A stretch of DNA of 64,000 bases from Desulfobulbaceae bacterium (lineage in GTDB: Bacteria; Desulfobacterota; Desulfobulbia; Desulfobulbales; Desulfurivibrionaceae). The notes under the pieces were generated by a model, which worked only from the letters and a program-made list of their open reading frames with translations, did no database searches and was not told the origin of the DNA. Below, piece by piece: positions 16,756-48,680 of the stretch; position 1 is the first letter of the stretch, and every line of letters starts with the position of its first letter. A program made the translations under genes and the position numbers. The DNA lies in the NCBI GenBank assembly GCA_004332195.1, contig SJBG01000007.1, positions 1 to 64,000 on the forward strand. Reading direction: 5' to 3'.

Positions 16756-17193
16756 GGCTAACCCTCCTTCATGTTTATCAGCGTTACGTGTCAACCCCAT
16801 TTATCTGTTACTTGGCGAACCTGGCGGCCAAGTTACTTCTCGACAGCCGATTCCCGTTGCTCACCTTGGGCGGGACGTCCTCTTTTGCGCTCATTGTTAT
16901 CTTCAGGCCACCTTGAAAAATTGCTCTTTCGCCCGATTTCTGCGTTATGCTCAAAAAATTATCCTCGGAATATAAACCATATGCCTGCGGTAATAAGTTC
17001 CATTGTTGACCGGCATCGGTCAACATTTTTTTTACGTGCCGTAAACTCGAACAAAATAGCAATTTTTCAAGATAGCCTTCATTAGGTTTGATTATTTTTT
17101 ATAATTTTTGTATTGCCTCTAAGGTAATACGTATCGTATAAAAAACAATTCATTAAAACCGTCTTCGGCCATAATATTTTTAAGGAAATAAAT
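16756..17193. other. 438-bp intergenic region between divergent genes
   Basis: Apart from MITE-A copy 2 (16906-17077) no gene is seen. Both neighbours point outward (HIT protein to the left, small ORF at 17194 to the right), so promoters for both should lie here. The stretch 17082-17160 is very AT-rich. Confidence 0.6.
16906..17077. mobile_element. MITE-A copy 2, complete, TSD TTCA
   Basis: A 172-bp element from GGCCACCTTGAAAAATT to its inverse ending AAGATAGCC, flanked on both sides by TTCA (16902-16905 and 17078-17081). It is the long form with the central hairpin TTGACC-GGCATC-GGTCAA. It has no coding capacity. Confidence 0.92.
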
Positions 17194-18777: not shown

Positions 18778-18951
18778 GGCTACCTTGAAAAACTAGCTGT
18801 TCTGTTCGAGTTTACGGCACGTAAAAAAAATGGTTGACCGATGCCGGTCAACAAGGGAACTTATTACCGCAAGCATATGGTTGATATTCCGAGGATATTT
18901 TTTTGAGCCTAACGCAGAAATCGGGCGAAAGAGCAATTTTTCAAGGTGGCC
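18778..18951. mobile_element. MITE-A copy 3, reverse orientation, long form
   Basis: A 174-bp complete copy with both terminal repeats and the central TTGACC/GGTCAA hairpin. Flanks are CTAA (18774-18777) and CTTA (18952-18955), a 4-bp duplication with one later change. Its left flank begins 2 bp after the stop codon of the FliK-like gene. Confidence 0.9.
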
Positions 18952-25162: not shown

Positions 25163-25336
25163 GGCCACCTTGAAAAATTGCTCTTTCGCCCGATTTCTAC
25201 GTTATGCTCAAAAAATTATCCTCGGAATATCAACCATATGCCTGCGGTAATAAGTTCCCTTGTTGACCGGCATCGGTCAACCTTTTTTTTCGCATGCCGT
25301 AAACTCGAACAAAATAGCTAATTTTTCAAGATAGCC
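25163..25336. mobile_element. MITE-A copy 4, long form, TSD ATGA
   Basis: A 174-bp complete copy flanked by ATGA on both sides (25159-25162 and 25337-25340). It separates sppA from the HU-like gene and ends about 15 bp before that gene's start codon, directly against its ribosome-binding site. It has therefore replaced the former spacer and upstream control region of the second gene. Confidence 0.93.
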
Positions 25337-32861: not shown

Positions 32862-33449
32862 ATGATGGGTATTGTCAGCATTTTATTAATCGCGGTGGCG
32901 CTGGCCATGGACGCCTTCGCCGTGGCCCTGGCGACTGGAATGCGCCTTGGGGTGGTGTCCCGCCGCCAGGTTTTCCGGCTGGCCTGGCACTTCGGCTTTT
33001 TCCAGACGGCCATGACCATCCTGGGCTGGATAGTGGGGATGGGAGTGGAGGCGGGGGTGGGAGTCATCAGTTATATCGAGGATTTTGGCAAACCGTTGGC
33101 CGCGGGTTTGCTGCTGCTGGTGGGCGGTCGAATGATTTACGAAGCGCTCAACAAAAACCGAAATCAAGCAAAGCCCCTGGACCCCACCCGAGGCAAAACC
33201 CTAATCATCCTGGCCGTGGCCACCAGCATTGACGCCTGGGCTGTCGGCCTGAGTTTCGCTTTCCTGATTCAGACAATTTGGTGGCCAGCCCTGCTAATCG
33301 GAATAACCGCCGCCCTGCTGACCATCTTCGGCCTGCGCCTGGGCTGTCGGCTAAGCAACAGTGCCAGGATGGGCCGACGGGCCGAAGTCATCGGCGGTGT
33401 GATCTTGGTCATTATGGCGCTCCGTATCCTGGCCGACGAAGCTGTTTAG
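32862..33449 (+). CDS. mntP: Manganese efflux pump MntP
   Basis: A 195-residue, six-helix inner-membrane protein with two repeats carrying the acidic motifs LAMDAFAVALATGM and TSIDAWAVGLSFAF. These define the MntP/YebN family that exports manganese. No manganese riboswitch or MntR site is recognised upstream. The stop codon TAG (33447-33449) is formed jointly by the MITE-A copy 5 target duplication and the first base of the element; the inferred pre-insertion sequence would also have given TAG. Confidence 0.92.
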   Translation: MMGIVSILLIAVALAMDAFAVALATGMRLGVVSRRQVFRLAWHFGFFQTAMTILGWIVGMGVEAGVGVISYIEDFGKPLAAGLLLLVGGRMIYEALNKNRNQAKPLDPTRGKTLIILAVATSIDAWAVGLSFAFLIQTIWWPALLIGITAALLTIFGLRLGCRLSNSARMGRRAEVIGGVILVIMALRILADEAV

Positions 33450-33622
33450 GCCACCTTGAAAAATTAGCTATTCTGTTCGAGTTCAAGAGATGCGAAAAAA
33501 ATTACCGCAGGAATATGATTGATATTTCGAGGATAATTTTCAGGCATATGGTTGATATTCCGAGGATAACTTTTTGAGCATAACGCAGAAATCGGACGAA
33601 AGAGCAATTTTTCAAGGTGGCC
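33449..33622. mobile_element. MITE-A copy 5, reverse orientation, internal duplication, TSD TTTA
   Basis: A 174-bp copy flanked by TTTA (33445-33448 and 33623-33626). It lacks the central TTGACC hairpin. Instead a unit of about 34 bp (GCAGG.ATATG.TTGATATT.CGAGGATAA) occurs twice in tandem with mismatches. The first base of the element completes the mntP stop codon. Confidence 0.92.
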
Positions 33623-33671
33623 TTTAGTGTTCAGCGGCTGGCACTTACGGGGGTGAGTTTACTGTTTTGCG

Positions 33672-33701
33672 TTGACAGCGGCGAAAACAGCCTGGTAGAT
33701 T
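33672..33701 (+). promoter_or_regulatory. Predicted sigma-70 promoter for thiC-like gene
   Basis: TTGACA (33672-33677) and TAGATT (33696-33701) are 18 bp apart, about 40 bp before the start codon. That leaves too little leader RNA for a TPP or cobalamin riboswitch, and no such element is recognised. Confidence 0.6.
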
Positions 33702-33739
33702 GATGGTTTTCCTAAAATGCGACAGGAGACTTTTTGATC

Positions 33740-35053
33740 ATGAGTATTCGTGAAGATGCCATCAACGGCAGGCTAACCTCGGTATTTAAGCAGTGTGCCA
33801 TTAACGAAGGGATCGCGGTCGAAACCCTGATGGCCGGGGTGGCGGCCGGGACCATTTGTATTCCCAAAAATCATCATCACGATTTTTCGCGCGTCACCGG
33901 CATCGGCAAAGGGCTCAAAACTAAGGTCAATGCCAATATCGGATCCTCCCTGGATCATCCGGAACAGGCAAACGAGTTGCAAAAGCTTTGCGTCTGTCTC
34001 AAGGCCGGGGCTGACGCGGTAATGGATCTGAGCATGGGTGGCGAGATCAGCGCCATCCGCCGGGAAATTCTCAAAAATTGCCCTATCCCTCTGGGGACCG
34101 TGCCGATTTATCAAAGTATTGCTCAGTTCGTCGAAAAAGAAAAAAAGAAGATCGGTGATGTCAGCATTGATCATATTTTTCAGGTCGTTGAAGAACAGGC
34201 CATCGACGGGGTGGATTTCATGACCATCCACTGCGGCATTACCCGCGACACCTTACAGAGAGTCGACAATCATCAACGACTGTTGGGGGTTGTCAGTCGG
34301 GGCGGATCATTCATCATTGAGTGGATGGCCCATAACAATCAGGAAAACCCGCTCTACGAGCGTTTCGACGACCTGTTGGCGATTCTGAAGGAACATGAGG
34401 TAACTCTAAGCCTGGGTGACGGCATTCGTCCCGGCTGCCTGGCCGATGCCACCGATCGCGGCCAGATTCAGGAGTTAATCCACTTAGGCGAGCTGACCCA
34501 ACGGGCTTGGGCGGCCGGGGTCCAGGTGATGATCGAAGGCCCGGGTCATATGCCCTTAAACCAGATCGAGGCCAATGTCCTGCTGCAAAAAAGGCTCTGT
34601 CACCACGCCCCCCTCTACGTCCTGGGGCCGCTGGTCACCGATATTGCGCCGGGTTACGACCATATCACCGGGGCGATCGGCGGGGCCATTGCCGCGGCAG
34701 CCGGGGCCGATTTTCTTTGTTACGTAACTCCGGCGGAGCACCTCAGGCTGCCGCTCCCGCAAGATGTTCACGACGGAGTCATCGCTTCGCGGATTGCCGC
34801 CCACGCCGCCGATATCGTCAAGGAAGTGCCCGGGGCCATGGGACGCGACATTAAGATGGCTAAATGCCGCGGCGCCTTGGACTGGCAGGGCCAGATTGAA
34901 TTATCCATTGACCCGGAAAAAGCCCGACGCTACCGTGAGGAAGGAAACACCTATATCGGCGACGCTTGCAGCATGTGCGGCTCGTTTTGCGCTATCAAGG
35001 TTTACGCTCAGGCCAGCCGGACCAGAAAGCGTCAAGCTAACAACAATCAATAG
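33740..35053 (+). CDS. thiC: ThiC-family radical SAM enzyme (HMP-P synthase or 5-hydroxybenzimidazole synthase)
   Basis: The 437-residue protein rearranges aminoimidazole ribotide, in ThiC to the HMP-P pyrimidine of thiamine. Landmarks are GIGKGLKTKVNANIGSS, AGADAVMDLSMGG, DFMTIHCGIT, SRGGSF, LSLGDGIRPG, MIEGPGHMP and GPLVTDIAPGYDHITGAIGG. The C-terminal cluster motif reads CSMCGSFC, a CX2CX3C spacing, one residue shorter than the CX2CX4C of E. coli-type ThiC. The short length and this spacing occur in the anaerobe-type subgroup, which also contains BzaF (lower ligand of cobamides). The two cannot be separated here. Ribosome-binding site AGGAG at 33724-33728; TTG 33734 is an alternative start. 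Confidence 0.85.
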   Translation: MSIREDAINGRLTSVFKQCAINEGIAVETLMAGVAAGTICIPKNHHHDFSRVTGIGKGLKTKVNANIGSSLDHPEQANELQKLCVCLKAGADAVMDLSMGGEISAIRREILKNCPIPLGTVPIYQSIAQFVEKEKKKIGDVSIDHIFQVVEEQAIDGVDFMTIHCGITRDTLQRVDNHQRLLGVVSRGGSFIIEWMAHNNQENPLYERFDDLLAILKEHEVTLSLGDGIRPGCLADATDRGQIQELIHLGELTQRAWAAGVQVMIEGPGHMPLNQIEANVLLQKRLCHHAPLYVLGPLVTDIAPGYDHITGAIGGAIAAAAGADFLCYVTPAEHLRLPLPQDVHDGVIASRIAAHAADIVKEVPGAMGRDIKMAKCRGALDWQGQIELSIDPEKARRYREEGNTYIGDACSMCGSFCAIKVYAQASRTRKRQANNNQ

Positions 35054-35113
35054 ATTTACCAGGGTTATTAAATTTAGCAAAATATTGACCAACTACGGTT
35101 GGGGGCCCTTGCC

Positions 35114-35443
35114 ATGGATTTTTTCGCCACGCTCATCGAGCTGTTCGGCAAAACCCGAATTCCGACCCAAGTCAGCGAAGTCGATATCCGCGGCCTGTTC
35201 ACCAACCCCTGGTTCCTGATACCTTTCATCACTTGGGTCAGCTACAAGCTTTACCGGCAGGCCGTCACCGCCTTGGCGCTTACCGCTCTGGTTGTAACCT
35301 TGTGGATTTTTTCAGGCAGTCCGATGATGGACGGACTGATCATCAACGGCGAGTTGCAACCAGGCAAGATTCTGCTGGTGGCGGGAGTCGGCCTGGTGGC
35401 GGTGATAATCGCCGTCTATTTTCTCTTTGTCCGCCCCAAATGA
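35114..35443 (+). CDS. Small membrane protein of unknown function
   Basis: The 109-residue product begins MDFFATLIELFGKTRIPTQV and has three hydrophobic segments (about residues 30-45, 52-68 and 85-104) ending in FVRPK. No family is recognised. Its TGA overlaps the start of the downstream endonuclease gene as ATGA, so the two are probably translated together. The GTG/ATG frame opens at 35099, but ATG 35114 is the more natural start. Confidence 0.65.
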   Translation: MDFFATLIELFGKTRIPTQVSEVDIRGLFTNPWFLIPFITWVSYKLYRQAVTALALTALVVTLWIFSGSPMMDGLIINGELQPGKILLVAGVGLVAVIIAVYFLFVRPK

Positions 35444-36240
35444 GCTTTCACCCCCTGAGGGAAGTTTACGAAAAACTAATGATATTTTTCGGCTCCCAAA
35501 ACTGGTGGCCCGGAGAAACCCCTCTAGAGATCACGGTCGGAGCCGTGCTAACCCAGAACACCGCCTGGGTCAACGTTGAAAGAGCGATCAACAATCTCAA
35601 GACCGCCGGTTTGCTGCCATCTCCCGCCACCGTCGCGAACCCGGATCAGAGGACCGGGGACCAAGGACCGCAGACCGAAATCAGGAGCCAGGAGTCAAAG
35701 GACCGAGCACATTCATCAAGTCTCGATCCTCGATCCTCGGTTTTCGGTCCCCGGTTCCCTGATGAGCAGTCGTGCCTGATCGCCCTGGCCGCGTTGCCCC
35801 GCGCAAGTCTGGCCGCCTATCTCCGCCCGGTCGGCTACTACAATGTTAAGGCTCAGCGCCTCCACAATCTCATCCATCATGTCCACTACGAATACGGCAA
35901 CCTGGCGGATTTTCTCGCCTTGCCAGCCTCTAAGTTGCGGCGGGAGCTCCTGGGCATCAAAGGAATCGGTCCGGAAACCGCCGATTCCATCATGCTTTAT
36001 GCCGCGGGCTTAGCCATCTTCGTGGTCGACGGGTACACCCACCGGATCTTCAGCCGTCATCAACTTTTGCCGGAAGATACGGATTATCACAGCATCCAGG
36101 CAATATTCACCGACGCCCTTCCAGCCGACCCGCAACTCTACAACGAATACCATGCCCTGATCGTCAAAACCGGCAAGGAGTTTTGTCGCAAGATCAAGCC
36201 CCGTTGCTCGGACTGCCCCTTGCGCGACCTGCTCCGATAA
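35440..36240 (+). CDS. Endonuclease III-like DNA glycosylase with [4Fe-4S] cluster
   Basis: The helix-hairpin-helix motif LLGIKGIGPETADSIMLYA is followed by the catalytic aspartate in VVDGYTHRIF, and the cluster cysteines are visible at the C-terminus (C-KIKPRC-SDC and an earlier FCR). The enzyme excises damaged bases; this HhH-GPD subgroup (about 220 residues) resembles 3-methyladenine glycosylase III-like proteins. At 266 residues it is about 45 longer because of an in-frame insertion at about residues 67-108 (35641-35765) made of a quasi-palindromic repeat. The start overlaps the upstream stop (ATGA). Confidence 0.85.
   Translation: MSFHPLREVYEKLMIFFGSQNWWPGETPLEITVGAVLTQNTAWVNVERAINNLKTAGLLPSPATVANPDQRTGDQGPQTEIRSQESKDRAHSSSLDPRSSVFGPRFPDEQSCLIALAALPRASLAAYLRPVGYYNVKAQRLHNLIHHVHYEYGNLADFLALPASKLRRELLGIKGIGPETADSIMLYAAGLAIFVVDGYTHRIFSRHQLLPEDTDYHSIQAIFTDALPADPQLYNEYHALIVKTGKEFCRKIKPRCSDCPLRDLLR
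35641..35765. repeat. In-frame quasi-palindromic insertion inside the endonuclease gene
   Basis: The left arm is built of GGACC/AGACCG words (ggaccggggaccaaggacc). The right arm (cctcggttttcggtccccgg) is roughly its inverse. It keeps the reading frame and encodes a Gln/Ser/Arg/Asp-rich segment with no counterpart in the family, placed between the first helices and the YYNVKAQRL region. Confidence 0.7.
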
Positions 36241-36344
36241 AGAGCAAAAGCAGGCTCGTCCCATTTTCTGAACAACAAATATATTCGGGGCCGCTATTCT
36301 TGTTTTTTCGGCTGATGCCGATAAGTTGTTTATAATGTTCTTTA

Positions 36345-36491
36345 GGCTACCTTGAAAAATTAGCTATTTTGTTCGAGTCCAAGGCACGTAAAAAAAATGG
36401 TTGACCGATGCCGGTCAACAAGGGAACTTATTACCGCAGACATATGGTTGATATTCCGAGGATATTTTTTTTGAGCATAACGCAGAAATCG
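36345..36491. mobile_element. MITE-A copy 6, right end lost
   Basis: The left flank is TTTA, the left terminal repeat GGCTACCTTGAAAAATTAGC is complete, and the central hairpin TTGACCGATGCCGGTCAA is present. The match ends after GCAGAAATCG, so the last roughly 30 bp and the second terminal repeat are missing or decayed. Confidence 0.88.
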
Positions 36492-36727
36492 TGGGAAAGC
36501 ATCAGCGGAGTCCTGCCCGCCAAGGCTGCCGAAGCGGTCTACCATGCGGAGGAACAGAAAGAGTTTGCAGCCCTGCTAAGCAACAAGTCACTGGTTCACA
36601 GCCCCGATGGGTGTTTCAGCGAAGCCCAAATCGCGGCGACCGACATCTTTTTGCCATTCGCTATGCCCCATCTCCACATCCCCCGGCCGAGAGCTTCATC
36701 GACGGTCGCTGGGTTGGAAGGTAGCCC
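36492..36727 (+). pseudogene. 3' fragment of an unidentified gene upstream of the GGDEF-EAL gene
   Basis: Two overlapping frames look protein-like. The first reads SISGVLPAKAAEAVYHAEEQ to SEAQIAATDI. After a shift at a five-T run, the second reads FAIRYAPSPHPPAESFIDGRWVGR and stops at 36724, 3 bp before the next start. Together they resemble the C-terminal end of a longer protein whose front was lost where MITE-A copy 6 now ends. The family is not recognised. Confidence 0.4.
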
Positions 36728-43360: not shown

Positions 43361-43501
43361 GGCCATCTTGAAAAATTGCTCTTTCGCCCGATTTCTGCGT
43401 TATGCTCAAAAAATTATCCTCGGAATATCAACCATATGCCTGCGGTAATTTTTTTTACGTGCCGTAAACTCGAACAAAATAGCTAATTTTTCAGGATGGC
43501 C
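43361..43501. mobile_element. MITE-A copy 7, short form, TSD TAAT
   Basis: A 141-bp complete copy without the central hairpin, flanked by TAAT (43357-43360 and 43502-43505). It lies between ettA and the bactofilin gene. The bactofilin stop codon (TAG on the minus strand) is formed by the duplication plus the last base of the element. Confidence 0.93.
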
Positions 43502-48506: not shown

Positions 48507-48680
48507 GGCCGCCTTGAAAAATTGCTCTTTCGCCCGGTTTCTGCGTTATGCTCAAAAAATTATCCTCGGAATATCAACCATATGCCTGCGGTAATAAGTT
48601 CCTTTTGTTGACCGGCATCTGTCAACCATTTTTTTCGCATGCCGTAAACTCGAACGAAATAGCTAATTTTCAAGGTAGCC
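48507..48680. mobile_element. MITE-A copy 8, long form, TSD TTTA
   Basis: A 174-bp complete copy with the central TTGACC hairpin, flanked by TTTA (48503-48506 and 48681-48684). It fills the space between the convergent htpX and sodium channel genes; its right flank ends 2 bp from the channel stop codon. Confidence 0.93.

Follow-up and report, generated by a model that had tools for sequence, protein, structure and literature searches.

A MagIII/endonuclease III-type (HhH-GPD) DNA glycosylase is encoded on the plus strand at 35440..36240 of the window, the 64,000-nucleotide stretch of DNA analysed here. The ORF located directly upstream (35099-35443) ends in a stop codon that overlaps the ATG of this gene, and the glycosylase ORF matches PF00730 in Pfam (4e-14). 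The closest solved relative is the 3-methyladenine glycosylase MagIII of H. pylori, which provides the best match in phmmer (1pu6/1pu7) and also in Foldseek (1pu7). The alignment with MagIII covers query residues 20-61 and resumes from residue 110; in the phmmer alignment the query has approximately 48 residues where MagIII passes from residue 63 to residue 66. An inserted or expanded segment occupies this gap. Alignments with eight orthologues, L032 and MagIII delimit it as residues 68-110 (codons PDQ...PDEQ; 35641..35769, plus strand), in frame with the remainder of the gene. An earlier note on this DNA had placed an in-frame insertion at 35641-35765; the ORF and the position both agree with this placement and with a length of approximately 40-42 codons.

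The segment is composed of two opposed repeat tracts and a spacer. The left tract (35643..35707, plus strand), recognized by its lag-7 identity, reads AGGACCG GGGACCA AGGACCG CAGACCG ... GGAGCCA GGAGTCA .. AGGACCG and is degenerate, with register slips of 1-2 nt. A central spacer without clear heptads follows in the sequence (35708..35719, no strand assigned). The right tract (35720..35764, minus strand), recognized by its lag-7 identity and its opposed partner score, reads CTCGATC CTCGATC CTCGGTT TTCGGTC CCCGGTT on the plus strand, which is the reverse complement of the heptad type of the left tract (AGGACCG). Together the two tracts form a quasi-palindrome (35645..35763, no strand) with the ends ATCAG...CTGAT, whose 34-nt arms at 35645-35678 and 35730-35763 are 76% complementary. 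The insert DNA folds with z = -2.4, and 4 of 200 shuffled sequences fold equally well; the signal is weaker in a wider frame. The quasi-palindromic character ascribed to the insert is borne out by the inverted repeat, with a fold somewhat better than that of shuffled sequences. Its description as a repeat of GGACC/GGTCC words is a simplification, since GGACC occurs four times and exact GGTCC only once. CCGGATCAG at 35641..35649 (plus strand) and CCTGATGAGCAG at 35758-35769 form a weak, imperfect direct repeat, of which CCGGATCAG is the left copy. From the sequence this pair is a candidate insertion footprint that may also be due to chance; no clean target-site duplication was observed in the sequence at the insert.

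The organizing feature of the insert is a 7-nt period. Lag-7 identity is 0.57 in the left tract and 0.67 in the right tract, compared with mostly approximately 0.2-0.3 at other lags, and longer multiples of seven are also raised (0.52 at lag 14 in the left tract; 0.56 at lags 14 and 21 in the right tract). The insert has the top lag-7 score in the window, and each arm contains approximately 6-9 degenerate heptad units. The palindrome exists because the same heptads recur in the left and right tracts in opposed orientation, and the opposed partner score of the right tract (18) is the joint highest among 68 tracts of the genome. A tandem array of 7-mers has a particular coding property. As 7 and 3 have no common factor, the array encodes one identical seven-codon cycle in all three frames, as in GGACCAA, which gives GPRTKDQ. 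A single stop-free heptad is therefore open in every frame, and the sole coding requirement is a net length divisible by three. In the decayed tract of the glycosylase, both other plus-strand frames are still almost entirely open.

Protein conservation in distant orthologues had been named beforehand as evidence contrary to an insertion, and none was found: the segment is missing from the orthologues outside the genus, at the family and order levels. The figure of 42 extra residues holds against these orthologues and roughly against the same-genus genome G004, which has a 12-residue linker at this site. It does not hold against two other members of the genus, G002 and G003, which carry low-complexity linkers of 46 and 59 residues of unrelated sequence that lack the 7-nt period (lag-7 identity 0.31 and 0.28). 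The ends of the linkers seem alignable (PDEQSCL / PDQNQCL / TEQDHCL). The branching order among the G002, G003 and G004 lineages is not settled, and judged from these sequences part of the insert length may derive from an older linker. The variation among these linkers (46, 59 and 12 residues) indicates that the site tolerates length. An AlphaFold2 model, which was built on a two-sequence alignment and is weak overall (mean pLDDT 59.5), is consistent with the claim of a frame-preserving insertion at a tolerated site. Residues 63-106, between the helices 43-55 and 107-118, are modelled as disordered with pLDDT below 50, and residues 110-180 exceed 80. The insert is thus predicted to occupy a flexible, disordered loop that is probably exposed to solvent.

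Similar tracts were observed throughout the 1.66-Mb genome, which was read in stretches and in which lag-k tracts were counted. Codon structure raises the lags that are multiples of three, and lag 7 was compared with the other lags. After merging, 68 tracts were found at lag 7 and 55 at lag 14, compared with 22-25 at lags 8, 10, 11 and 13. At an equal threshold the lag-7 rate is 44 tracts per Mb here versus 15 in G002, 10 in G003 and 0 in G055 (same order), with the comparison genomes sampled at 200-400 kb. Exact tandem 7-mers number 47 in intergenic and 21 in coding DNA and 8-mers 11 and 7, the coding and intergenic counts resting, like the genes outside the window, on a home-made dicodon scoring. 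Predicted genes contain approximately one-quarter of the tracts, and a certain background is to be expected there. The heptads are diverse (CCTCTGA, CTGTCCC, GGGGCAA, TTAGCTG, TAACTGA-like and others), and heptad words recur between tracts, with 142 similar pairs versus 25-41 in phase-permuted controls. An opposed complementary partner within 150 nt was observed for 8 tracts versus 1.6 expected, with no excess of partners in the same orientation (1 versus 1.6 expected). The heptad-tract population is species-specific, and the glycosylase insert is one of its members. An intergenic element at C1:116731-116869 displays an opposed-heptad architecture like that of the insert. The genome, rated 100% complete at 1.66 Mb, has a G+C content of 54%; near-complete genomes of the same genus are approximately twice as large (2.8-3.1 Mb) and have 60-61%. 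Genome reduction may have proceeded alongside the accumulation of repeats.

Several tracts lie in frame in other genes, and the cleanest case is an essential gene, that of alanyl-tRNA synthetase (C15:123885-126647). A heptad insert (GRQGRQGGQGAGDRGQEGQGGQSRQ...) follows the motif IHVDQG in frame within the catalytic domain and adds 41 residues. These residues are missing from nine relatives, in which IHIDQG is directly joined to the next cysteine motif and sequence identity is 73-83% in one flank and 65-78% in the other. A DUF6079 protein (C17:114397-115077) with a quasi-palindromic tract has 225 residues on 201 profile positions, or 24 residues beyond the positions spanned. The linker tract GQGSEVRGQGSE of an ETF-family protein on C12 is a further in-frame case. 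A heptad tract is also present in a DegT-type aminotransferase, whose sequence around it is too variable for an insertion to be called. The earlier note had advised a search for the repeat inside other genes; in-frame inserts of the same class are present, most clearly in the alanyl-tRNA synthetase, and no second copy of the sequence itself exists, as a DNA search of the genome with the insert returned only the insert.

In relatives, matches of the pattern GGACCNNGGACCNNGGACC in 58 relatives did not rise above those of the reversed-pattern control. A triple GGACCRA heptad was present in 1 of 395 genomes of the phylum, and a distant-mode BLAST search of the insert against phage and plasmid records returned no match. 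In viral contigs (L059, L057, L070 and others), GGACCRA heptads occur at 27 loci, mostly as short simple arrays; in L057 they form an opposed pair just 5´ of an ATG.

The features of the insert are individually familiar from other bacteria. Geobacter metallireducens, traditionally grouped with the deltaproteobacteria, contains 49 alignable elements of four tandem GGGACCG/GGACCGG heptads at inter- and intragenic positions, and in another of its classes five heptads in tandem are drawn on both strands (PMC2700814). Compared by description, the GGGACCG elements resemble the insert in a near-identical heptad and an intragenic location. They are multicopy, in contrast to the single GGACCG locus and the many tracts of other heptads found here. 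Rickettsia palindromic elements (RPEs) and intragenic REPs are located in frame in genes, often DNA-repair genes and tRNA synthetases, and lengthen proteins that probably still work by 20-80 residues (PMC3733652). The insert is likewise quasi-palindromic and in frame inside an otherwise conserved gene. Each RPE or REP, however, belongs to a sequence family whose many related members have a fixed palindromic core, whereas the insert is single-copy and defined by its 7-nt period. Many bacterial genomes are enriched in heptanucleotide repeats, for which polymerase slippage over approximately 7 nt has been proposed (PMC4679880, PMC4692102). Examples are the GGGAATC heptameric simple sequence repeats of Xanthomonas and Nostoc (PMC4692102) and the TAACTGA repeats of Beggiatoaceae and Cyanobacteria (PMC4679880), which are 7-nt tandem units, mostly intergenic and variable in copy number; TAACTGA-like tracts also occur here. 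Those systems have one main motif per genome and are under-represented in genes, unlike the present genome, which has several motifs and has tracts located in frame within genes, part of them with opposed arms. In the P6b element of the Nostoc tRNA-Leu intron, the two sides of the stem consist of mutually pairing 7-nt repeats and the length changes in steps of 7 (PMC4476775), a heptad stem that resides in intron RNA and not in a protein-coding loop. The insert unites heptad-repeat and in-frame palindromic-insert features that were each already known and is not a copy of the RPE type.

Taken together, the insert is probably a degenerate two-armed heptad tract that grew or was copied in frame into a loop of the MagIII-like glycosylase, apparently without harm. 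Short tandem 7-mers would arise by polymerase slippage during replication and then expand, hairpin-mediated template switching would add the inverted arm, and point mutation would subsequently decay the tract. Selection would purge tracts that break the frame or the structure and spare those located in loops. Slippage with template switching as the origin, and neutrality of the added peptide, are what we infer from the periodicity and the opposed arms of the insert, the genome-wide enrichment of heptad tracts, and the in-frame position and absence from relatives of the segment, together with the modelled disorder of the loop. Slippage by itself leaves the opposed arms and the vocabulary common to unlinked tracts unexplained, and dispersal would also fit these features. 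Hairpin energy was considered as a property common to the tracts and rejected; because most tracts fold no better than intergenic controls, hairpin formation is not supported as a general driver.

Alternatively, a transposase could have put a mobile palindromic element akin to an RPE or a MITE in frame into the gene; the earlier note had likened the insert to RPEs. The ATCAG...CTGAT ends, the possible CCGGATCAG/CCTGATGAGCAG flanking repeat, the same opposed architecture at C1:116731-116869 and the heptad words common to several loci would agree with such an element. We nevertheless consider it unlikely: the insert has no other copy in the genome, a clean target duplication is missing, and what the loci share is the 7-nt period and the heptad vocabulary instead of a dispersed palindrome. 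A RAYT-type transposase was also considered as the mobilizer and rejected, since the sole Y1_Tnp match in the search was a partial one in an ORF of 99 residues, and a full-length transposase of this type did not turn up. In addition, the genome does have a real MITE, which is 141 bp long, differs in sequence, is flanked by 4-bp target duplications and is unassociated with the tracts. If the length is instead ancestral and protein-driven, the segment would be a fast-evolving linker typical of the genus that drifted into repetitiveness, as the low-complexity linkers of G002 (46 residues) and G003 (59 residues) at this site and their seemingly alignable end motifs would suggest. This explanation is rather improbable, because those linkers are unrelated in sequence and aperiodic, G004, whose branching position is unsettled, has just 12 residues, and a 7-nt period is not expected under selection on the protein. 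Moreover, a like tract splits the alanyl-tRNA synthetase, which is linker-free in the genus members examined. A functional nucleic-acid signal that lies in the gene by chance, such as a regulator or RNA-binding site of tandem heptads, has been proposed for the heptad elements of Geobacter metallireducens (PMC2700814) and Beggiatoaceae (PMC4679880). For the insert it is very improbable given the many different heptads among the tracts, folding that does not exceed that of intergenic controls, and a location within conserved genes that would be odd for a regulator site; Rfam returned no match within 33300-36700.

An in-frame heptad tract in the glycosylase bridges two literatures that are usually separate, namely heptameric simple repeats, the majority of them intergenic, and palindromic insertions that keep the frame and make proteins longer. 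With dozens of tracts in one genome, some of them cleanly located in core genes whose relatives lack them, the origin of such inserts by slippage and template switching or by transposition becomes directly testable by strain comparison. More speculatively, heptad tracts could generally serve as a source of new protein loops that is indifferent to frame, and this species could be in a burst that adds disordered loops of 25-45 residues to core enzymes (the glycosylase, the alanyl-tRNA synthetase, the ETF and DUF6079 proteins and possibly the DegT-type aminotransferase); we regard this only as a tentative suggestion.

A separate MITE-like family is abundant in the genome, with approximately 107 complete copies of 141 bp and a second class of approximately 174 bp, and the heptad tracts exhibited no association with this family. 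Copies in the window are located at 16906-17077, 18778-18951, 25163-25336, 33449-33622, 43361-43501 and 48507-48680, with a diverged copy near 36351-36510; the copy at 33449-33622 contains a 33-nt internal duplication. The ends form 16-bp inverted repeats (GGCCACCTTGAAAAAT), and 68 of the 107 copies are flanked by a 4-bp A+T-rich target duplication. The sampled genomes of the same genus and the same family contain no match. Relatives that are approximately 80-88% identical are present in other families of the order, with 26 in G029, 18 in G031, 6 in G033, 2 in G027 and 1 in G028.
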